DNA of 33,066 bases from Candidatus Eiseniibacteriota bacterium (GTDB taxonomy: Bacteria > Eisenbacteria > RBG-16-71-46 > CAIMUX01 > WJJG01): positions 1 to 33,066 of the forward strand of contig JAGMBO010000007.1 in NCBI GenBank assembly GCA_023129715.1, read 5' to 3'. Position 1 is the stretch's first letter. Each line of letters opens with the position of its first letter. The notes under the pieces were generated by a model. That model saw only the letters and a program-made list of their open reading frames with translations. It had not been told where the DNA came from and made no database searches. Positions 3,705-18,268 of this stretch are shown here, one piece after another. Position numbers and translations under genes: made by a program.

Positions 3705-4301
3705 TCATGTCGCGTCGTCTCCACCCTCTTGTTGAGTGTTCCTCTGGTGTTTCTCAAGATACTCGGCTGCGTTGCGCAGTCGCCGAGGGTTGTCATCTAA
3801 GAGACCAACTGCAACATTGCAGGCAGTGCAGAAAAGGCCGCGAACGCGGCCGGTCTTATGGTCGTGGTCAACGGCAAGACGAATAGGCTGCCCGTGACGC
3901 CTCCGGGCTTCCTTTCGGCCACAAATAGCACAGCCACCACCCTGTTCTGCTTCCAGTCTCCCGAACTCTTTCATCGTCATCCCGAACTTGGTCTCTATGT
4001 TTCTCTGTCTTGCCTTCCTGCGAGTACAAGCCTTGCAGACGTAGTCATAGCCAATCGCCCGACGAGAGTCTTTCGCGAATTCCCCAATTGGCTTGACCTC
4101 TCTACAGAGAGTACACCTCCTTTCTGTGACGTGAAGAACCCTGCGCCCGGAGGAGCGACGAGCGATTCCATTCTCCTGGAAGGCCCGTGAAACCGTCATA
4201 GGGGATACTCCGTGTCGCTTCGCGATGTCACGCAGGGTGCTTCCAGCTTCGTATTCCAAAGCCATCGCCCGTATTCGCTGATGCGTCAGTTTCTTTGGCA
4301 T
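3705..4301 (-). CDS. Recombination endonuclease VII-family nuclease with N-terminal HTH
   Basis: A 198-residue nuclease with three segments. Residues ~5-50 form a helix-turn-helix (YEAGSTLRDIAKRHGVSPMTVSRAF). A zinc ribbon follows (CTLCREVKPIGEFAKDSR...CKAC). The C-terminal domain has the endonuclease VII signature: CAICGRKEA, then VDHDHKTGRVRGLFCTACN, then LLDDNPRRLRNAAEYLEKH. The His-Asp-His core is the catalytic beta-beta-alpha metal site, with four structural Cys around it. Family members are phage Holliday-junction resolvases or stand-alone homing-type nucleases. The DNA is visibly less GC-rich than its neighbours and no other phage gene is nearby, so recent arrival is likely. A start three codons upstream (4310) is also possible. 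Confidence 0.88.
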   Translation of the reverse strand: MPKKLTHQRIRAMALEYEAGSTLRDIAKRHGVSPMTVSRAFQENGIARRSSGRRVLHVTERRCTLCREVKPIGEFAKDSRRAIGYDYVCKACTRRKARQRNIETKFGMTMKEFGRLEAEQGGGCAICGRKEARRRHGQPIRLAVDHDHKTGRVRGLFCTACNVAVGLLDDNPRRLRNAAEYLEKHQRNTQQEGGDDAT

Positions 4302-4419
4302 GGTCCACACCCAACGTAGGGGCTGAGCTGCAAGCGCATCCGGTCCAGTAGGGCCGGTTTGCGCCCGGATTGCGCAAGCAAGCCGCGTGACAACAGCCCT
4401 TGTCAGCTTCAGCGTCGAG

Positions 4420-4747: not shown

Positions 4748-5911
4748 CTAGTCACTGAACCGCAGCAGCCGCGCCCCGATCCCGAAGAAAACCGCCGCAT
4801 ACCCCAGCAGGATCAGGCAGGGCACGACCACAGCCCCGATCCCCGCACCGAAGGAGATGATCGCATGAAATCCGTCCATCGCCCAGGCCGCGGGAGAGAT
4901 GTGTCCCATCGTGCGCATCCATTGCGGCACGACCTCCAGCGGCCACCAGCACCCCCCGATGGCCCCCAGGAAGAGCGCCACGACCAACGTCGTTGCGGTC
5001 ACCTGTTCCGGCCGCCGCAGGATCGCGCCCCAGAAGAGCGCCATCGACGACGCCGCCAGACCGAAGCAGACGATGACGAGTAGCAGCCCGGGCAGGCTAT
5101 TGCCCAGGTAGGCGCCCAGCAGGAAGCGCCCCGCGAGCAGCAGAATGCCGGCCTGCGCGAGACCGATGGCAAGTGCGCCGAGAATCTTCCCCCCCAGGAT
5201 CGTGACCCGGTGCAGGGGCTGGCTGGCGATCCGAGCGAGGATCCCCTCCTGCTTCTCGGTCGCCAGGAAAACCGCGCCATAGATCGTCGTGTTGATCAGC
5301 ATGAAGAGCGCGATCGTCGCCGGGAGACTTTGGCGCATCCCCGAGGGGACCGGCCGCCCGCGACCGGCCGTCTCGGAGGCCACCTGGATCAAGCGGGGTC
5401 GGGCGGCGATCTCCGCGAAACGCTGTTGGAAGCCCGGGTCGGTCGGGCTGGCCCAGGTCTTTCCAGCAGGGTTCGCTTCGGTCAGGGAGAACAGCGTGCT
5501 GAAGCTCGCCCGCTGGATGTGCATCTCGGCGGTCACGGAGGCTTCAGAGCTGGCATCGGGATCGACGTAGAAGAAGACCGGCGTCGACTGCGCATGCATC
5601 AGGCTGTCCTGGAATCCGGGCGGAACAGTCACACTGCGGCGAATGCGCCCAAGCGAATCGCGTTCAGCCGGCCCCACACGCTGGATCGAGAAGCCCTCGT
5701 GACCGAGCGCTTCGGCAAAGGCCTCCGAAAGATAAGTCTGATCCTCATCGATCACCGTCAAGCTGACCTTGCCGCCGCCGGAGCCGCCGCCCATCTGCCC
5801 GAAGAGAAAGATGAACCCGACCGGCATGATGATCATCCAGAAGAGGGTCGGCCGGTCCTTGATCGTCTGGCGTAGGTCGTTGAGCGCCAGTAGGAGGGCT
5901 CCACGCAGCAT
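4748..5911 (-). CDS. ABC-2 type transporter permease (second permease)
   Basis: Inner-membrane permease of 387 residues in the ABC-2/NatB-like class. It has an N-terminal TM helix (FWMIIMPVGFIFLFG, ~24-38), a long extracytoplasmic domain (~40-205) and a C-terminal block of five or six TM helices containing the family hallmark ATEKQEGILARIASQPL, which lies in the coupling region between TM helices. It is the last gene of the operon: ATG at 5911, 18 bp after the preceding stop, with AAGGA a few bases upstream. Together with the 5930 permease and the ATPase it should form a heterodimeric exporter. The substrate is unknown; antibiotics, ions and lipid-linked compounds are all carried by this class. 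Confidence 0.9.
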   Translation of the reverse strand: MLRGALLLALNDLRQTIKDRPTLFWMIIMPVGFIFLFGQMGGGSGGGKVSLTVIDEDQTYLSEAFAEALGHEGFSIQRVGPAERDSLGRIRRSVTVPPGFQDSLMHAQSTPVFFYVDPDASSEASVTAEMHIQRASFSTLFSLTEANPAGKTWASPTDPGFQQRFAEIAARPRLIQVASETAGRGRPVPSGMRQSLPATIALFMLINTTIYGAVFLATEKQEGILARIASQPLHRVTILGGKILGALAIGLAQAGILLLAGRFLLGAYLGNSLPGLLLVIVCFGLAASSMALFWGAILRRPEQVTATTLVVALFLGAIGGCWWPLEVVPQWMRTMGHISPAAWAMDGFHAIISFGAGIGAVVVPCLILLGYAAVFFGIGARLLRFSD

Positions 5912-5929: not shown

Positions 5930-7324
5930 CTAGTCCCCGCGGGCCAGTTGACCGCGCAGCAAGGCGCCCCCGAGCAGTACACTGACGAGACCGACCGCGA
6001 GAAAGACGACCAGCGGCCGGGCGATCTCCGCAACGCCCGCCCCCGAGAAGAGCAACGCCTGGAATCCCTCGATCGCCCAGTAGTTCAGGCTGATCACCGC
6101 CAGGCGCTGGACGAACTCGGGCATCGCCTCGAGTGGAATGAACGATCCCCCGAGGAAGGCCATCAGCATCATCACGATCGATGCCAGCGTTGCGCCGCGC
6201 TGTTCGCTGCGGGCGAAACTGTAGAGCAGGTTGACAAAGCCAGTCAGCGCCAGCAGGAAGAGCACGCAGAGCAGCAGGAAGGCGATCGGATTGGCGCGCG
6301 CACCGAGAAACAGCGCGCCGATGAGCGCCATCAGGAGGGCGACGATCAAGCCGACACCCATCGTGGCCAGCATCTTGCCAACGACGACCTTCTGTGGCTG
6401 CAACGGGGCGGCCAGCTGCCGCGCGAGCGTGCCGCGCCGGCGCTCGCGGAAGACGTCGGCGGTGAGTCCCACCGCGAGTACGAAGAGGGCGAAGGTCGCC
6501 ATCCCCGGGAGGACGTACTTGAAGATGCTCAGAAACCGGGCATCGTCGTCGGCAGACGCTGCGGCGGGTTCCGCTGGGCTTGTGGTGTCGGAGAGCACCG
6601 GCACGCCGGGCGCGTCCGCCCTCTCCAAACGGATCGCGGGAGGCAGCAGGTAGTCGCGCGCCCCGCGCAGCGCATGGTTCACCGCCACGGCAATCTCGGC
6701 GACACGCTCATCCGCAGCCCAGTCGGCCGGAGCCGGCACAACGGGCCTCTCGGAGATCTGACCGGCAGCACCGCCAAGAGTCCCGGCGCCCGGGACAGCC
6801 CCCGCACCACCATCTGCGGACCCCTCCTCGGTCAGCCCACGAATCCGTTCGATCGGCCCGGAAAGCACACTCGCCGCGCCTTCGAGGAAGAGAGCCAAGA
6901 ACTCGGCCGTCTCCTCGACGGCGATCGGCCCGATCGCCTCGGCCGGATTGCGGATCACCCGCAGCTCGGTCGGGCGGCGATCTAGCACCGCATCGGTGAA
7001 TCCGGCCGGGATGACGATCGCACCGGCGACGCGATTGTGCTCGATCAGCTGCATCGCCTCTTCGTGAGTGGTCTCGGTCACCTCGAGGAACTGGGCCGCC
7101 CGTTCCTGGCCGAAGGCCCCGCGGACGAGCCCGGCCACAAAGCCCCGGTCCTCATCGACCAGCGCAACCTTGAAGCGGGGCATCCGCCCCTCCCCGCCGG
7201 TTCCGAAGGCCAGCGCGATCAGGGCGGAGAAAACGAAGGGAAAGGCGAGGAAGACGAGGGAGGCGAGGGGGGAGCGCCAGCGTCGCAGGAGATCCTTGCG
7301 CATGATCAACCAAATGATCCGCAT
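5930..7324 (-). CDS. ABC-2 type transporter permease (first permease)
   Basis: Inner-membrane permease of 464 residues. TM1 is at ~19-41, followed by an unusually long extracytoplasmic domain to ~275 that includes a Gly/Ala-rich low-complexity stretch (~165-195), then about five or six TM helices. The ABC-2 hallmark FRERRRGTLARQLAAPLQP sits just after TM2, and SGGSFIPLE-like FLGGSFIPLEAMP lies in the re-entrant region near the end. The start codon ATG at 7324 shares its A with the stop of the last of three mini-ORFs that follow the ATPase gene, so translation is probably coupled. It pairs with the 4748 permease, which has the same plan but a shorter ectodomain. Confidence 0.92.
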   Translation of the reverse strand: MRIIWLIMRKDLLRRWRSPLASLVFLAFPFVFSALIALAFGTGGEGRMPRFKVALVDEDRGFVAGLVRGAFGQERAAQFLEVTETTHEEAMQLIEHNRVAGAIVIPAGFTDAVLDRRPTELRVIRNPAEAIGPIAVEETAEFLALFLEGAASVLSGPIERIRGLTEEGSADGGAGAVPGAGTLGGAAGQISERPVVPAPADWAADERVAEIAVAVNHALRGARDYLLPPAIRLERADAPGVPVLSDTTSPAEPAAASADDDARFLSIFKYVLPGMATFALFVLAVGLTADVFRERRRGTLARQLAAPLQPQKVVVGKMLATMGVGLIVALLMALIGALFLGARANPIAFLLLCVLFLLALTGFVNLLYSFARSEQRGATLASIVMMLMAFLGGSFIPLEAMPEFVQRLAVISLNYWAIEGFQALLFSGAGVAEIARPLVVFLAVGLVSVLLGGALLRGQLARGD

Positions 7325-7411
7325 CAGTCCCTCAACTCGCGGATAGCCCGCATCAATCCCTCAACTCGCAGATGGCCCGCATCAGTTCCTCAACTCGCAG
7401 ACGATCCGCAT
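7324..7411 (-). repeat. 29-bp tandem repeat forming three stop-start-coupled mini-ORFs
   Basis: Three full 29-bp units fill the gap between ATPase stop and permease start. Read on the minus strand each unit is ATG + eight codons + TGA: 7411-7382 encodes MRIVCELRN, 7382-7353 encodes MRAICELRD and 7353-7324 encodes MRAIRELRD. Each stop shares its A with the next start (TGATG). The unit is the junction itself: the ATPase ends in RELRD-stop and the permease begins MRI. Every unit also carries GAGG(G/A)A about 4 nt before the next ATG, a usable ribosome-binding site. 29 is not a multiple of 3, so every unit changes frame. Confidence 0.9.
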
Positions 7412-8340
7412 CAGTCCCGCAGCTCCCGGCCGGTCAGTTTAAGGAAGACACCCTGCAGGTTCGGCTGCTGGATGGAGATGTCATCGACGGCGAGTCCCTT
7501 CCTTAGGATCCGGCCCAAGACACCCGTGACCTCCCCCTGGCCCTTGCCGACATCGAGGACCGCCTGGCCCTCTTCCAAACTGACGACGCGCACGTGCTCA
7601 TCCTCTGCGACGATCGATTGCAGTTCGCCAGGCTCGAATCTCCCCTTCAACGTCAGGATCTCCCCCTCGCCGACCATGCGCTTCAACTCGGTCAGGGAGC
7701 CTTCCGCGAGGATGCGTCCGTGATCCATGATGCCGATCCGGTCGCAGAGCTCCTGCGCCTCCTCGAGGTAGTGGGTCGTGTAGAGCACGATCGTGCCCGC
7801 CCGGACAACCTCGCGGACGACATCGAGGATGTTGAGCCGCGCCTGGATGTCGATGCCGACGGTCGGTTCATCGAGAAGCAGGAGCTTCGGCTCATGGATC
7901 ATGCCGATCGCGAGGTTGAGACGCCGCTTCATCCCGCCCGAGTACTTGCGCACCGCATCACCGGCGCGTTCGGTCAGCCCGACTGCCTCCAGAACCGCCG
8001 TGGTGCGATCCCGCAAGGCGCCTCCCGTCAGCCCCGCGAGACCGCCCCAGAAGTGGAGGTTCTCACGGGCGCTCAAGTCGCCGTAGAGGGCTGTCTCCTG
8101 GGGCACGACCCCCAGACGCCGCTTGAAGGCGATCGGGTCGCTCTCCAGCGCCACGCCGTCGAGCTCGATCGTGCCGCGATCGGGACGCAGCAGTCCGCAA
8201 ACGCAGGAGATCGTCGTCGTCTTGCCCGCCCCATTGGGACCGAGCAGTCCGTAGATCTCGCCGGGCTTGACTTGGAAACCGATCTCATCGACCGCCTTGA
8301 GCGATCCGAAGGAACGCGAGAGGGACTCAACGACCAGCAT
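7411..8340 (-). CDS. ABC transporter ATP-binding protein (ABC-2 / drug-export class)
   Basis: Cytoplasmic ATPase of 309 residues energising the two downstream permeases. It has Walker A GPNGAGKTTT (~residues 37-46), Q-loop VPQE, signature YSGGMKRRL, Walker B LLLLDEPTVGID and the switch His in YTTHYLEEAQ. The ~80-residue C-terminal extension (ILTLKGRF...AVLDVGKGQGEVTGVL) is the accessory domain typical of DrrA/NatA/CcmA-like export ATPases. I start at ATG 8340 (MLVVESLSRSFG) because it begins the first NBD strand and follows GAGGG by 6 nt; an upstream start at 8424 would add 28 unrelated residues. First gene of the operon. Confidence 0.95.
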   Translation of the reverse strand: MLVVESLSRSFGSLKAVDEIGFQVKPGEIYGLLGPNGAGKTTTISCVCGLLRPDRGTIELDGVALESDPIAFKRRLGVVPQETALYGDLSARENLHFWGGLAGLTGGALRDRTTAVLEAVGLTERAGDAVRKYSGGMKRRLNLAIGMIHEPKLLLLDEPTVGIDIQARLNILDVVREVVRAGTIVLYTTHYLEEAQELCDRIGIMDHGRILAEGSLTELKRMVGEGEILTLKGRFEPGELQSIVAEDEHVRVVSLEEGQAVLDVGKGQGEVTGVLGRILRKGLAVDDISIQQPNLQGVFLKLTGRELRD

Positions 8341-8404
8341 GGCGGCCCTCGCAGCTCGGGTGACGGAACGGGGGCAGCGGCCAGGAATCAGGCGCGCCGC
8401 GCCA

Positions 8405-8460
8405 GAGTCGGGCGATCCTGGCACCCCACCAAGAATCGGGCGATCCTAGCACCCCACGAT
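8405..8460. repeat. 28-bp tandem repeat, two copies
   Basis: Unit 1 (8405-8432) and unit 2 (8433-8460) match at 24 of 28 positions around the core TCGGGCGATCCT-GCACCCCAC. On the minus strand, the reading direction of the ATPase gene, unit 2 gives GTGCTAGGAT, which is weakly -10-like. The repeat ends 65 bp upstream of the ATPase start. Confidence 0.8.
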
Positions 8461-12545: not shown

Positions 12546-15404
12546 TCAGTAGACCTCCACGGCGCCGACCGCCATCCCCTGGAAGGCATCCTGATCACTC
12601 AGGTAGTGGCTCAGCGGCAGATTGGGCAGAAAGCTCGCCTCCCCCCAGCGCACACGGAGCACATACTCCCCGGGCGCGCAATTGGGATGGATCGGCACCT
12701 TCACGTGATCAACGACATGGCGATCGCGCGGCCAATGCTCGACACCAAGACTGCCGCCCAGCGGTTCGATCGACCGCCGGAGACGGTAGAACACGTCTTT
12801 GCGCACCTGCTGCCAGAGACGATGCAGCTTGCTGAACTGCGGCGTCCAGAGCAGTCCACGAGGCGCCGGGGTATCGAGTCGCAGATGGCTGATGACCGGG
12901 AACTGCGCCGGGTCGCCCACCCGCCGCCAGTAGAGGGTGACGCCGAGGCTCTCGCCCCGAGCGACCCAGTTCGTGTCGAAGGCCGCTGCTACCAGCGTGA
13001 TCCCCGCGACCGTATCCGGCAGCACCGGGCGCGCATCGTCGGGAAGACGCCGCATGAACAGGTCTCGGGTCAGCTGCGAGGTGTTGCGATGGGGCGGCAG
13101 CTGCTCGCCCGAGCGCACGATGCCCGAGAGCGGATCGAGGTTCTCCTTGCGCACCGCGAACAGTGCCCCGCGGCCCGCCACTTCCCAGACCGGCTCGAAC
13201 AGCGCCGGGTCGGCGGCCAGGGCGGCGATCTGCCGCCGGGCGCGGGCGGGACCGACGTGGCAGAAGAACTGATCGACCGCTCGCCCGAAGGTGGCATTGA
13301 CGAGGACATAGTCGACACCGAAGCGGCGGCAGATGCGCGCCTTCTCGCCGGTGCCGAGGTAGGGACTCAGGACGTCGCGCACACCAGCCAGCCGCTCGAT
13401 GGCGAGCGAGTCGGCGGGGCTCGCGTGTTGGTGCAGCACCGCCACGCTGTAGTGGCGAGTCATCGCGGGAATCGTGTAGCCGGTAATGGGATCGGTCAGG
13501 ACGACCGCCGACTCGGGAGCTTCCGCATCCAGCCGCTCCAGGAGATCCTCCCAGACAAACATCGAACGGGCCTCGGCCCGATCGAGATGCGCACGGGAGT
13601 AGGAGGCGGCGAATCCTTCCAGCCGCGGAAAGAGCAACAACACCATCAGGCCGTAGAAGAACACGGCGGTTAGTACGCGCCGCGCGGAGTTCAGTTCGAG
13701 GAGATTCTCCCCCATCCAGCGCGCGACATAGGCAAGCACGACGAGGAAGGGGATCAGGATCGCGAAGCGGGCGATGAGATAGCCCAGAAGCGGCTCGAGC
13801 AGCGGGACGACGAGTGGATTGAGCAGGATCAGCAGCGGCGCCAGGCTGAGCGCGGCCAGGTAGACGACCCCATCGCTCTCATCCAACCGCCGCCAGAGCA
13901 GCAGCGAGAGCAGCACACCACCGAAACCGACGGCGCCGAGGAAGGGAGCCCACTCGATGGGATTGATGATGTAGAGGCGCTCGCTCAGGTAGAGCAGACC
14001 TTGTGAATGCGTGTGCAACGGATTGAGTGCTTGCGCGGCGAAGAAGTAGCGCCAGGCAATCATCGGCAGGCATCCGCCGAGCGCCGCCAGCAGGACCAGC
14101 CCGCCGCGCCGGGGGCGGGGATCACGCCAGCGGCGAAGGAGCAGCAGGGCAACCCAAAAGACGCCAAGGGTGAAGAGGATATTGACCGCCGCGAAGAGAT
14201 GGGTCGCCGTGGCGGCGAACGCGCTGGCCGCCACCAGCCAGAGCATCGGCCGACGCCCATCGCCCGAAACGAAGCGCAGCCCGAGGGCAAGCACACCCCA
14301 GACCAGCACGACCCCCATGTGGCTGCCGTAGGCGAGCTGGGGCAGCAACCCCGAGCGCGCTTGTCCGAAACAGACCATTGCCAGGAAGGTCGCCAGCAGG
14401 GCGGTGCCCTCGCTGCGGAGGATCCTGCGGGCCATGGTGTGAAAAACGATCAGCGCGAAGATCGTCAGAATGCCGGGCAGCACGCGCAGGAGGGCGATCG
14501 GATCGACCTGCGCGAGTTGGGCGATCGCCGCCAGGGCGACGTGGAAGAAACCCTTGCGCGGGTCGACCGACGCCCCGTCCCCACCGACATGGAACATCGT
14601 GCGCGGCAGGATCCGATCGGTATCGACCATCTCGCGCAGGCAGGCCACGTGCGAGGGCACGTCGGTGTCGTAGCCGAAGCTGCTCCCGGCATAGAAGGCC
14701 AGCACGCCGGCGAAGAGCAGGAGGCTGCCCAAGGCGAGCAGCGTCGCCCACTGTGGCGCCAGCGGGCGATCGATCTTCTGCTCCTCGCCCAACCGGTAGG
14801 CCTGCCGCAGGATCTCGCGTTCGATCCGACCGCGCGGGCTGCGAGGATCCTCCGGCGTGACCGGAACCGGCAGAGGAATCTCCTCCGGCGCCGGCGCGGC
14901 AGGGAGTTCCTCATCTCCACTCCCCCCCTCCGGCACCTCGGCGGACCCCTCCGCAGCGCGCCGACGGTAGCGTCGCCCCTGGAGCCAGAGCAACACGGCC
15001 CCCACAAAGAGCATTGCCCCGATCCCCCAGACGACCGCGCTCAACCGCCCAGGGAAAGGAGGCGGTGCCTCGGGGGGCGCGACAGGACCGAGCGCGACAT
15101 CGCCACCGAAAAACCAGGCCACGATGCCGAGCAGGGAGGTAAGGGCGATCCCGAGCAGGAAGGCGCGCGTGACACGCGCCACGAGGCCAACATTGGAGAA
15201 GGGGACGATCAGACGCTGAAGCAGCCAGCCGGGCAGGAGAATCAGACACAGGAATCCCGCCCCCGCGCGAACCGCAACGGGCAGCATCGGTGCAGCCCAG
15301 TGCAGCAGGGGAAGCAGCAGCGGGCTCAAGAGCCAGAGAATCGACTGCAGCCCCAGCGCCCGCACCGGCGGCCGCACCGGGGAGGAGCTTTCCGACGCGT
15401 GCAT
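12546..15404 (-). CDS. Large polytopic membrane protein, GT-C glycosyltransferase-like
   Basis: A 952-residue protein with roughly 13-15 TM helices. After TM helices near 20-115 there is a charged linker (~145-210), then a TM followed by YAGSSFGYDTDVPSHVACLREM, an acidic first-periplasmic-loop motif in the position where GT-C enzymes such as PMT, ArnT and STT3 hold their catalytic Asp. More helices run to ~590. The soluble C-terminal ~360 residues include a segment like the lipid-carrier-dependent GT periplasmic domain (VVLTDPITGYTIPAMTRHYS) and a final beta-sandwich ending GEYVLRVRW. It probably transfers sugar from a lipid carrier. It shares an operon with the flippase. No strong Shine-Dalgarno sequence was seen, so the start is uncertain. 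Confidence 0.72.
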   Translation of the reverse strand: MHASESSSPVRPPVRALGLQSILWLLSPLLLPLLHWAAPMLPVAVRAGAGFLCLILLPGWLLQRLIVPFSNVGLVARVTRAFLLGIALTSLLGIVAWFFGGDVALGPVAPPEAPPPFPGRLSAVVWGIGAMLFVGAVLLWLQGRRYRRRAAEGSAEVPEGGSGDEELPAAPAPEEIPLPVPVTPEDPRSPRGRIEREILRQAYRLGEEQKIDRPLAPQWATLLALGSLLLFAGVLAFYAGSSFGYDTDVPSHVACLREMVDTDRILPRTMFHVGGDGASVDPRKGFFHVALAAIAQLAQVDPIALLRVLPGILTIFALIVFHTMARRILRSEGTALLATFLAMVCFGQARSGLLPQLAYGSHMGVVLVWGVLALGLRFVSGDGRRPMLWLVAASAFAATATHLFAAVNILFTLGVFWVALLLLRRWRDPRPRRGGLVLLAALGGCLPMIAWRYFFAAQALNPLHTHSQGLLYLSERLYIINPIEWAPFLGAVGFGGVLLSLLLWRRLDESDGVVYLAALSLAPLLILLNPLVVPLLEPLLGYLIARFAILIPFLVVLAYVARWMGENLLELNSARRVLTAVFFYGLMVLLLFPRLEGFAASYSRAHLDRAEARSMFVWEDLLERLDAEAPESAVVLTDPITGYTIPAMTRHYSVAVLHQHASPADSLAIERLAGVRDVLSPYLGTGEKARICRRFGVDYVLVNATFGRAVDQFFCHVGPARARRQIAALAADPALFEPVWEVAGRGALFAVRKENLDPLSGIVRSGEQLPPHRNTSQLTRDLFMRRLPDDARPVLPDTVAGITLVAAAFDTNWVARGESLGVTLYWRRVGDPAQFPVISHLRLDTPAPRGLLWTPQFSKLHRLWQQVRKDVFYRLRRSIEPLGGSLGVEHWPRDRHVVDHVKVPIHPNCAPGEYVLRVRWGEASFLPNLPLSHYLSDQDAFQGMAVGAVEVY

Positions 15405-15529: not shown

Positions 15530-18268
15530 TTATCGGACGATCAAAACCCTGCCCTGCTGCTGCTCGGCGCCCTGGCCGATGCGGTAGAGATACACCCCAC
15601 CCGCCACCGGGCGGCCTCCCTGATCGCGCCCATCCCAGGTGAGCGTATGCACGCCCGCGGGAAGCTGGGCGCTCAGCGCGCGGACGCAGCGGCCTTGGAG
15701 ATCGAAGATCTCTCCGCGCACGCGCCCCCCCGTGCCGAGCTGCAGGCGCAGTCCCGTGGCCCCGGGCGCCGGATTGGGCGTTGCGCCGAGCAGGCGCAGG
15801 CCGCGTGCCCAGGCCCCCTCGGCGATCCCCTGGGCCCCCTCCTCGACGGTGAAGGCCGCCGGCGGCATGCAGGGGCCGCATTCGCTCCCGTCGCTGGCAT
15901 GCGCGCGCCAGTGGTAGGTGCCGTCATCAAGTGCCACGGTCACCGTCCATTCAGTCGTTCCTTCGCCCTCGGGAATCGAGCTCGCCTCCAGCACCAGACT
16001 CGTCAGCAAGGCATCGTCATAGACGCGGAAGCCATAGACGAGCGCATCGCCGGGGTCGGGATCGCCGGCATTCTGTACCGAGAGCGTCGGCAAGGCGGTC
16101 ATCACCGTGCCGCCGTCGGGAGGCCCGGCCAGCGCCGGCGCACCCGGGGCCTGATTGCCGCCCGCGCTGCCGCGGATCTCGAGATCGTCGACATACCACC
16201 CCTCGGCGGCCACACCGCTGTCGGAGCCGAAGCGGAAACGGAACTGAAGTGAGCCATTGACCGCATCGAGAATCACCTGCTCTTCGCGCCACGCGAGGTA
16301 TCCCGAGTAGAGATCGGTGCCCTCCGGGAAGGGCCCCGCCCCGCGGGCGATGTGCGTGTAACCCGGCCCCGGGAATATCTGCGTCCAGGCGCCGCCCTCG
16401 ACCGAGATCTCGACCAACCCGCCATCGTAGGCCTGCCCGGGCCAAGAACCGCTCTCCTCGGCATCGATCCAATGCCAGAAGGTCAGCGTGGCCGCGGCGC
16501 CCGCGGTGACCGCCGGGGTCACCAAGGCTCCGTCGCTGTAATGGGCATAGTCGCCGCTGCCGGTGTTACCGAACTTCCAGCTCGTACCGCCACCGGAGGT
16601 ATGATTGCGTGACGTGCTCTGGTGCCACTGGTCGTAGAAGCCCGCCGTGACGACCTCGTGGGTCCAGTCCCCCGCGCCTGACTCCATGTCGTCGGCAAAG
16701 AGCACCGGGGGTTCTCCAACGATCCACTCCAGCGGATAGGCAACTTCGATGCCGGCCGCCGTCACCAGGCAACTCGCCTGCAGACGGTGTCCCTGCGGGC
16801 AGTCGGCGGCAACGGTGAACGAGAAGGGATCACCCGCATTGTCGCCATCCGCTCCGGCCGCGAGGGTTCCCAGCGTGGCGGTCGCCTGATGGAGCTGCAG
16901 GTAGGGATCGTCGCTCGACAACACGACCTGGGCATTCTCGGCCGCGCCGATGACACCGTCGTTGTGCAGGGTGACGACGAGATCAAGGGTCTCGCCCGGA
17001 TCGGGCTCGCCATCGCCATCGCCGCCCGAAAGCACGGCGTCGGTGAGCGTCAAGTAGGCGCCGGCCACGTTCATCAGGTAGAGGTTCTTGGGGATGTTCT
17101 CGGCGACCAGACCCGGGACTTCCGCATCGGCGGGCCAGAAGCCACTGCCGTCAACCTCCGTCGTGAAGCTGAACATGCCATGCTCGGCGTAGGTCCAGTC
17201 GAATGTGCCGCCCGAGACGGTGTAGAGGATCTCGCCGGGCTGCCCGATGCTGTAGCCACAGAAAGCCTGCATCGCCGTGGCCGTCGTGCGGAAGGTCGCA
17301 TCGTCAGGCGTGTGCGCGGTCGTGTAGCCCCAAGGGAAGAGCACCATCCCTCCGTAGCTGTGATAGCTGTCATGGGTGACGAACTCCCGCTCGTTACACA
17401 GGTTCATGATCGCCTGCACGCAGGGCTCGGAGCCCGGCGTAGGGCCGTGATAGACGTCGCTGCAGGGGTCGCTGCTCGAACCCGTGCCACCCCACTCGTA
17501 GGGATAGTTGCGGTTCGGGTCGACCCCCATGCAACTCGTCCCCTCATTGTCACGGCGGTTCTTGCGCCACATCCCGCCGCCGCCGGGATAGTTCTGCTCG
17601 TTGTAGAGATAGCCGTCGACATTGACGACCGGGACGAAGTAGGTCTCGCGCTGATCGACAAGGAAGGTCGCCTCGGGATCGGTTCCATAGTTCTCGCAGA
17701 GATGGCGGATCGTTTCGATCAAGACATTGACCGTGATCGGCTCGCGGGCATGGTGCAGCGCATCGAAGAACACCTCGGGCTCGTCTTCGTCGATGTCGGG
17801 ATTGTCCGAGACCTTCATCGCCCAGATCGTACTGCCTTCATGGGTCGTCCCGATGGAGAACTTCGCCGTCGTGATCGCGGGATACTGGGCATGGAGCTGA
17901 TCGAGCAGGTCGACCGCCTCGCTGTAGGAATAGAGGTCGCCGAGGTTGCGGTACCCCTCGCGCTGGGCGGCATAGTGGGCCTCCATGTCGGCAATCTGGA
18001 CTTCGACCACGAACCCGAGGGCCTCGAGGCGCTCCACCTGCTCCGGCGTACTGACCAGGATGATCTCCTTGCCGGGCGTCACGCGCATCGGATCGAGATC
18101 CCCGATGCTGCGCAGCTCCTCGAGTTGGAACTGCAGGGGCCAGTCGAGACGCACCTGCATCTTCGGCCCCTCCCCCGTGTAGGCCAGGGCCCCGGGGGTG
18201 CCGAGCAAGACGATCAACAGGGCGCAGAATGAACCGACCAGGCAAGCCTCGTGACGCAGGAAGCTCAT
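15530..18268 (-). CDS. Secreted M14 zinc carboxypeptidase with C-terminal FlgD-like sorting domain
   Basis: A 912-residue secreted metallopeptidase. A signal peptide (~1-29, cleaved near ALA-Y) is followed by an ~80-residue propeptide-like region and the M14 domain. Zinc ligands are His173 and Glu176 (HHAREP) and His303 (YHSYGG); Asn252-Arg253 (DPNRN) bind the substrate carboxylate; Glu371 (FTTEVDG) is the general base. After ~400 come a beta-sandwich (DPGETLDLVVTLHN), a jelly-roll/MAM-like domain (DDMESGAGDWTH ... GWYVDDLEI), an Ig/Fn3-like domain (DGTYHWRAHASDG) and a final FlgD-like Ig domain (LPAGVHTLTWDGRDQGGRPVAGGVYLYRI). Such tails often direct type IX-like surface export. AAGGAG lies 9 nt before the ATG. 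It likely digests proteins outside the cell. Confidence 0.93.
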   Translation of the reverse strand: MSFLRHEACLVGSFCALLIVLLGTPGALAYTGEGPKMQVRLDWPLQFQLEELRSIGDLDPMRVTPGKEIILVSTPEQVERLEALGFVVEVQIADMEAHYAAQREGYRNLGDLYSYSEAVDLLDQLHAQYPAITTAKFSIGTTHEGSTIWAMKVSDNPDIDEDEPEVFFDALHHAREPITVNVLIETIRHLCENYGTDPEATFLVDQRETYFVPVVNVDGYLYNEQNYPGGGGMWRKNRRDNEGTSCMGVDPNRNYPYEWGGTGSSSDPCSDVYHGPTPGSEPCVQAIMNLCNEREFVTHDSYHSYGGMVLFPWGYTTAHTPDDATFRTTATAMQAFCGYSIGQPGEILYTVSGGTFDWTYAEHGMFSFTTEVDGSGFWPADAEVPGLVAENIPKNLYLMNVAGAYLTLTDAVLSGGDGDGEPDPGETLDLVVTLHNDGVIGAAENAQVVLSSDDPYLQLHQATATLGTLAAGADGDNAGDPFSFTVAADCPQGHRLQASCLVTAAGIEVAYPLEWIVGEPPVLFADDMESGAGDWTHEVVTAGFYDQWHQSTSRNHTSGGGTSWKFGNTGSGDYAHYSDGALVTPAVTAGAAATLTFWHWIDAEESGSWPGQAYDGGLVEISVEGGAWTQIFPGPGYTHIARGAGPFPEGTDLYSGYLAWREEQVILDAVNGSLQFRFRFGSDSGVAAEGWYVDDLEIRGSAGGNQAPGAPALAGPPDGGTVMTALPTLSVQNAGDPDPGDALVYGFRVYDDALLTSLVLEASSIPEGEGTTEWTVTVALDDGTYHWRAHASDGSECGPCMPPAAFTVEEGAQGIAEGAWARGLRLLGATPNPAPGATGLRLQLGTGGRVRGEIFDLQGRCVRALSAQLPAGVHTLTWDGRDQGGRPVAGGVYLYRIGQGAEQQQGRVLIVR

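Follow-up and report, generated by a model that had tools for sequence, protein, structure and literature searches.

A 29-bp tandem array at an ABC ATPase-permease gene junction, and closed mini-cistron chains at other operon junctions of the same class

Between an ABC ATPase gene and the following ABC-2 permease gene of Candidatus Eiseniibacteriota, a TGATG stop-start overlap is repeated four times at regular distances. How did this arrangement arise, and could ribosomes use it as a path from one gene to the next? We analyzed the junction in the window, i.e. the whole stretch of 33,066 nucleotides containing it, and compared it with other genomes of the class. The features concerned are:

7411–8340, minus strand: ABC transporter ATPase, 309 aa from the ATG at 8340 (ORF list; the ORF is extensible to a GTG at 8424)
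7382–7411, minus strand: mini-ORF 1, MRIVCELRN-stop, TGATG overlap at both ends
7353–7382, minus strand: mini-ORF 2, MRAICELRD-stop, TGATG overlap at both ends
7324–7353, minus strand: mini-ORF 3, MRAIRELRD-stop, TGATG overlap at both ends
7319–7425, minus strand: 29-bp array, 3.7 copies (TRF and unit alignment)
5930–7324, minus strand: ABC-2 permease 1, 464 aa, start MRIIWLIM (Pfam ABC2_membrane_3, 1.8e-40)
4748–5911, minus strand: ABC-2 permease 2, the other membrane subunit, 387 aa (Pfam ABC2_membrane_3, 7.2e-39)

Structure and origin of the junction array

The minus strand of the junction reads ...CGGGAGCTGCGGGACTG ATGCGGATCGTCTGCGAGTTGAGGAACTG ATGCGGGCCATCTGCGAGTTGAGGGATTG ATGCGGGCTATCCGCGAGTTGAGGGACTG ATGCGGATCATTTGG..., and direct reading reveals a 29-bp tandem array that joins the ATPase (stop 7411) to the permease (start 7324). 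TGATG occurs four times, with its T at 7413, 7384, 7355 and 7326, at a step of exactly 29 nt. The ATPase C-terminus (...LTGRELRD-TGA) overlaps the ATG of mini-ORF 1 with its TGA. Each of the three mini-ORFs consists of ATG, eight codons and TGA, the third TGA overlapping the permease ATG at 7324. TRF assigned to the array a period of 29, 3.7 copies, 85% matches and a score of 151, the top tandem-repeat score in the window. Direct reading and TRF together bear out the original prediction of three 29-bp ATG-to-TGA units chained by TGATG, and the repeat itself is certainly real and beyond chance. An in-frame protein repeat was rejected, as the unit length of 29 is of the form 3n+2 and every unit contains a coding-strand stop. 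The array moves the permease start 86 nt away from the ATPase stop; the spacer between permease 1 and permease 2 is an ordinary 18 nt.

The ATPase matches Pfam ABC_tran (4.5e-33) and has a DrrA1-3_C-like C-terminus, with an NCBIfam DrrA-like match below the cut-off. Its identity to relatives from the family and the order is 59–73%; for permease 1, identity to family relatives is 49–53%. Two further features of the window were observed: a 28-bp tandem repeat of 1.9 copies (8404–8457) in the leader of the ATPase operon, upstream of the ATG and partly within the GTG-extended ORF, and a small ORF (3705–4310, minus strand) in which helix-turn-helix-like matches precede a Pfam domain, Recombination endonuclease VII.

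According to the unit alignment, the duplicated segment comprises 17 nt from the 3' end of the ATPase gene and 12 nt from the 5' end of the permease gene. Within each unit, these correspond to the last 17 nt (14/17 matches with the real ATPase end) and the first 12 nt, respectively, which supports the proposal that a TGATG junction was expanded in place. Compared with the real ATPase end, unit 3 (CGC GAG TTG AGG GAC TGA) carries synonymous changes only. As judged from this alignment, one junction-spanning duplication of 17 + 12 nt would yield the whole arrangement. The noted combination of a permease N-terminus and an ATPase C-terminus in the peptides is explained in the same way, because the duplicated segment carries the ends of both genes. 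The three full units vary at 7 of 29 columns, and five of these seven columns alter the peptide; with 78% expected for random changes, this is as predicted in the absence of peptide constraint.

The array is absent from the same ATPase-permease junction in G001–G003, G005, G007, G008, G021, G014, G012 and two named MAGs. The family relatives G001–G003 have unrelated spacers of ~20–121 nt (~120 nt in G002, shorter in G003 and G001) and no TGATG at the ATPase stop, so within the family this junction lacks the TGATG conservation that the original prediction had set as its own criterion. Beyond the family, the spacing ranges from an ATGA overlap (G014) to ~50–60 nt. A blastn search of the window's own genome with the 119-nt array returned only the array itself (next E-value 0.93). 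A dispersed element in this genome is ruled out by that search, and a conserved regulator by the missing array in all relatives checked, which belong to other genera. The array is lineage-specific. The transporter does not need a fixed coupling, because the family relatives space both genes by ~20–121 nt with no overlap.

In order to judge how easily a closed chain forms, all duplications of 9–69 nt across this TGATG were enumerated. A closed chain resulted in 700 of 2135 (33%), and in 700 of the 710 with a length of 3n+2 (99%). Starting from three identical units, 7–11 random substitutions leave the chain intact with a probability of 10–23%. Because a third of the duplications close and a chain survives substitutions at this rate, the closure of this single array is weak evidence and does not by itself argue for selection. 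Tandem arrays are also frequent in the window's genome, where 433 kb yielded 26 TRF rows with a period of 18–70 and at least ~3 copies.

Closed arrays at other junctions of the class

The pattern TGATG-N24-TGATG-N24-TGATG matched only two places in 47 genomes of the class, the window array and the etfB-etfA junction of G035 (genes assigned by Pfam), while the reversed-pattern control gave no match. At etfB-etfA the junction duplication encodes the mini-ORFs MSCHSSKVV and MSRIASKVI. There is no array in G039, a genus-mate of G035, and a plain TGATG in G030. In G045 and G044, which belong to genus g35, one mini-ORF runs through all the 24-bp units at this junction (40 and 64 codons, respectively) and is flanked by ATGA on either side. 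A closed pattern with a unit length of 26 was absent from the 47 genomes. In two further genomes the same pair of genes is joined differently. An insert in G042 (L099) is non-repetitive and still closed, with TGATG, a 12-codon mini-ORF and GTGA into etfA; in G002 (L187), a 10-bp sequence from the etfB stop, without starts, is repeated five times and ends in a strong GGAGG, and no relay is formed.

Both matches came from a search that required closed geometry. A TRF survey without this requirement covered 2.65 Mb of class sequence, of which 1.11 Mb belong to the window's genome (4.83 Mb in total). At thiE-thiL of the window's genome (L199, ~13770–13950; G000:C165, minus strand), four copies of 44 bp contain three 15-codon mini-ORFs (MTVRGGRLGAGRVAR etc.), connected by ATGA links after an initial spacing of +4. 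Between an acyl-CoA synthetase gene (NDP-forming type, named from sequence) and a gene for a DUF2079 membrane protein (L207, ~15670–15860; G000:C112, minus strand), there are four copies of 43 bp, and the chain is closed via GTGA, or via ATG with 13-nt spacers. A Shine-Dalgarno-like poly-G run is present in each 43-bp unit together with a mini-ORF (e.g. MPRSAALAE), and the genome contains no second copy of this array. The nuoD-nuoE junction of G044 holds eight copies of 23 bp with ATGA links and mini-ORFs of the MSEAKRLT type.

All arrays found to span both a stop and a start are closed, namely those of the window, etfB-etfA (G035, G045 and G044), thiE-thiL, acyl-CoA synthetase/DUF2079 and nuoD-nuoE. 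Among the arrays not selected for closure the tally is 4/4, counting the etfB-etfA arrays of G045 and G044 as one event; at a chance of 1/3 each this corresponds to ~0.012, in a small sample and post hoc. Arrays that do not span a start codon (the 10-bp array of G002, L251 and L285) are uninformative on closure and were excluded, as was L289, a 7/8-bp ATGA microsatellite that closes under relaxed spacing only. This microsatellite (L289:8367–8490, G000:C14) encodes MNR-stop mini-ORFs and follows an apparent sigma-54-type regulator gene. Among 943 co-directional gene pairs in long stretches, a strictly overlapping mini-ORF chain was present in 7, with at least three links in 2. As these cases show, closed relays recur at coupled junctions in this class. 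The original prediction had proposed counting units in related genomes. Such a count gives closed relays of varying copy number at other junctions, and none at the ATPase-permease junction of the relatives checked.

Candidates from other sources were rejected. The spaced pattern matched 66 viral stretches, the array-like ones of which are not clearly located between genes; in phage L156 the frame stays open for 81 codons before and 147 codons after the array, which was judged non-coding-looking. Among 291 genomes of another phylum two gave matches, an intergenic repeat with in-unit stops (G333) and a pair of units with little likeness (G070).

A series of link numbers is found in g35, a genus distant from that of the window. 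In almost all f10 relatives, among them G043 of genus g35, nuoD, nuoE and nuoF are joined by direct start-stop overlaps, and for nuoD-nuoE the overlap is −4 in nearly all. The number of nuoD-nuoE links is eight in G044 and zero in G043; two G045 contigs, possibly from two strains given the 6% contamination of this genome, have two and one. All links are closed. At nuoE-nuoF one closed link occurs in G044 and in G045, and none elsewhere. A pattern search for the 15-base core ATGAGCGNAGCGAAG gave 26 occurrences in G044, 13 in G045 and one in G043; there were none in seven other genomes, and the reversed-pattern control had no match in the genus. All 17 distinct occurrences examined start a mini-ORF whose stop overlaps another start, with a length of 8–9 aa in 16 and of 16 aa in one. 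This 23-bp family (MS[EA]AKxLx), ATGA-linked at both ends, was observed at operon junctions of the genus; the stretches concerned are L274 and L309 (G044), L304 and L327 (G045) and L328 (G043). The family is a dispersed, genome-wide, MIRU-like mini-cistron, and it is probably of more interest than the window array.

Initiation signals and competing explanations

The starts at 7382, 7353 and 7324 are preceded by TTGAGGRAY-TG. The start of mini-ORF 1 at 7411 is preceded by CTGCGGGACTG without GAGG, so that the claim of a GAGG-type site in every unit stands for the former three only. The predicted pairing with the anti-Shine-Dalgarno sequence is moderate and nearly equal at the four starts (−6.2 to −6.6 kcal/mol). 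Permease 1 has its own Shine-Dalgarno sequence, GAGGGA-N5-ATG. Since de novo initiation is therefore possible 5 nt downstream of GAGGGA, it was overstated that a ribosome could only reach the permease through four restarts. A search for internal promoters of the sigma-70 type found no such site on the minus strand of the junction.

We propose the following course of events. An ancestral TGATG overlap of ATPase and permease was caught in a spanning 29-bp tandem duplication and amplified to four junction copies. Every copy became a closed nine-codon cistron, its stop overlapping the next start, because the unit contains TGATG and has a length of 3n+2. The permease was thereby displaced by 86 nt with the termination-reinitiation chain unbroken. 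Coupling is strongest at overlaps of −4 or −1 and drops steeply with spacing; in a systematic study, it had all but vanished at ~20 nt (PMC10666635). Because reporter work finds coupling mostly lost beyond ~20–30 nt (PMC10666635; reviewed in PMC12548453), though reports differ (PMC12548453), an unclosed insert of 86 nt should uncouple the genes. Ribosomes leaving the ATPase would be passed along the links, a fraction being lost at each one, and de novo initiation at the permease Shine-Dalgarno sequence would help. ABC-2 exporters of this architecture are expected to contain two ATPases and 1 + 1 permeases. A slightly lower output downstream of the ATPase would be in keeping with such a 2:1:1 complex of ATPase, permease 1 and permease 2.

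We infer that ribosomes use the links and that the array is tolerated for this reason, as an expansion that leaves the stop-restart path open, with a MIRU-like way of working. This is the explanation we consider probable. It agrees with the exact geometry, the local origin, the closed arrays found without asking for closure and the nuoD-nuoE series, in which every chain is closed; the one-in-three chance of closure, the neutral peptide changes, the uncoupled relatives and the permease Shine-Dalgarno sequence count against it. Several points would fit a neutral slippage repeat, closed by a one-in-three accident, with the permease initiated de novo at GAGGGA-N5-ATG: a third of duplications across TGATG close, short tandem arrays are frequent in this genome, relatives lack the array and separate the two genes by long spacers without coupling, and the start has its own site. 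We regard this as rather unlikely, as all four junction arrays collected irrespective of closure are closed, in a small post hoc tally, and as the copy number at nuoD-nuoE changes without the chain ever being open.

Alternatively, slippage could alter the number of units and thereby set the ATPase:permease ratio, as an adaptive switch. Copy numbers do differ among related genomes at nuoD-nuoE and etfB-etfA, and variable MIRU repeats upstream of Mtb-fpg1 are associated with differences in expression (PMC2734929). The divergence of the units at 7 of 29 columns, however, argues against frequent recent slippage at this junction, and we consider such a switch very unlikely. It is highly improbable that the peptides or the RNA are themselves functional, in the manner of a leader peptide or a structural regulator. 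Short hairpins are possible within each unit and the three peptides resemble one another, but the junction RNA folds no better than shuffled sequences (z = 0.51), the array matches no Rfam family, the peptides change at the neutral rate and their content follows entirely from the two gene ends that were duplicated. In a draft genome such as this one, with 186 contigs, short arrays can be miscounted; with units diverged enough to be individually distinguishable, and an array inside one contig with intact flanking genes, the chance of an assembly artefact is close to negligible.

Taken for the class as a whole, it is possible, though we hold this only tentatively, that operon junctions with overlapping stop and start are repeatedly turned into mini-cistron relays and that selection keeps the chain closed while the number of links changes. 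This would involve relays of as many as eight links, six junctions or more, units of several lengths and one dispersed family. If true, ribosomes would go through many successive rounds of processive reinitiation, and evolution could adjust subunit ratios through the number of links. The natural arrays of one, two, three and eight links, together with linkless relatives, make serial restart and the loss per step measurable with simple reporters. Such relays would account for operons that withstand an insertion at a tightly coupled junction, and they would extend a MIRU-type mode from mycobacteria to an uncultured class.

Comparison with known systems

The recurrence across the class and the series of 0, 1, 2 and 8 links do not appear to be described in the searchable literature, outside which most subscription journals lie. 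The statement that no expanded junction had been described was nevertheless too strong, given the precedent of MIRU (PMC12548453; PMC4213456; PMC2734929). According to PMC12548453, which cites Supply 1997, these repeats are located at mycobacterial operon junctions and start codons, their ORF couples to the next gene and this coupling is thought to limit harm to expression. The copy number varies among strains (PMC4213456, PMC2734929), the unit measures ~40–100 bp (PMC2734929) and the small ORF is coupled at a spacing of −4 (PMC12548453).

At the level of a single link, the window array contains the same motif as ordinary overlapping TGATG/ATGA gene pairs (PMC6728339, PMC10666635), presumably with the same mechanism. 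Such pairs have a single overlap between two full genes, whereas here four consecutive TGATG overlaps enclose mini-cistrons. In bicistronic designs and other short coupling ORFs (PMC12548453) the short ORF may likewise serve only to bring a ribosome to the start that follows; these are synthetic or single upstream ORFs, in contrast to the serial tandem repeats found here within an operon. The g35 mini-cistrons share with the window array closed mini-ORFs in tandem at operon junctions. They differ in being ATGA-linked and a dispersed family of related sequences (MS[EA]AK...); the window array is unrelated in sequence and confined to a single locus.

The closest likeness is to MIRU (e.g. at senX3-regX3), which are also repeats at operon junctions with a small ORF that overlaps its neighbor. 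As in MIRU, the repeat lies in the same orientation between co-directional operon genes, here the ATPase and the permease on the minus strand. MIRU are also found as tandem copies whose number varies between strains; here such variation was seen at other junctions of genus g35 only. The differences concern the remaining characteristics. MIRU form a dispersed mycobacterial family of 40–100 bp with a −4 overlap, whereas the window array is a local repeat of unrelated sequence with a 29-bp unit, mini-ORFs coupled in geometry at −1 (TGATG) and no dispersed related copy detected by blastn in its own genome. In our comparison, the window array thus resembles MIRU in its geometry and its presumed working but arose locally, and it is not itself a MIRU.
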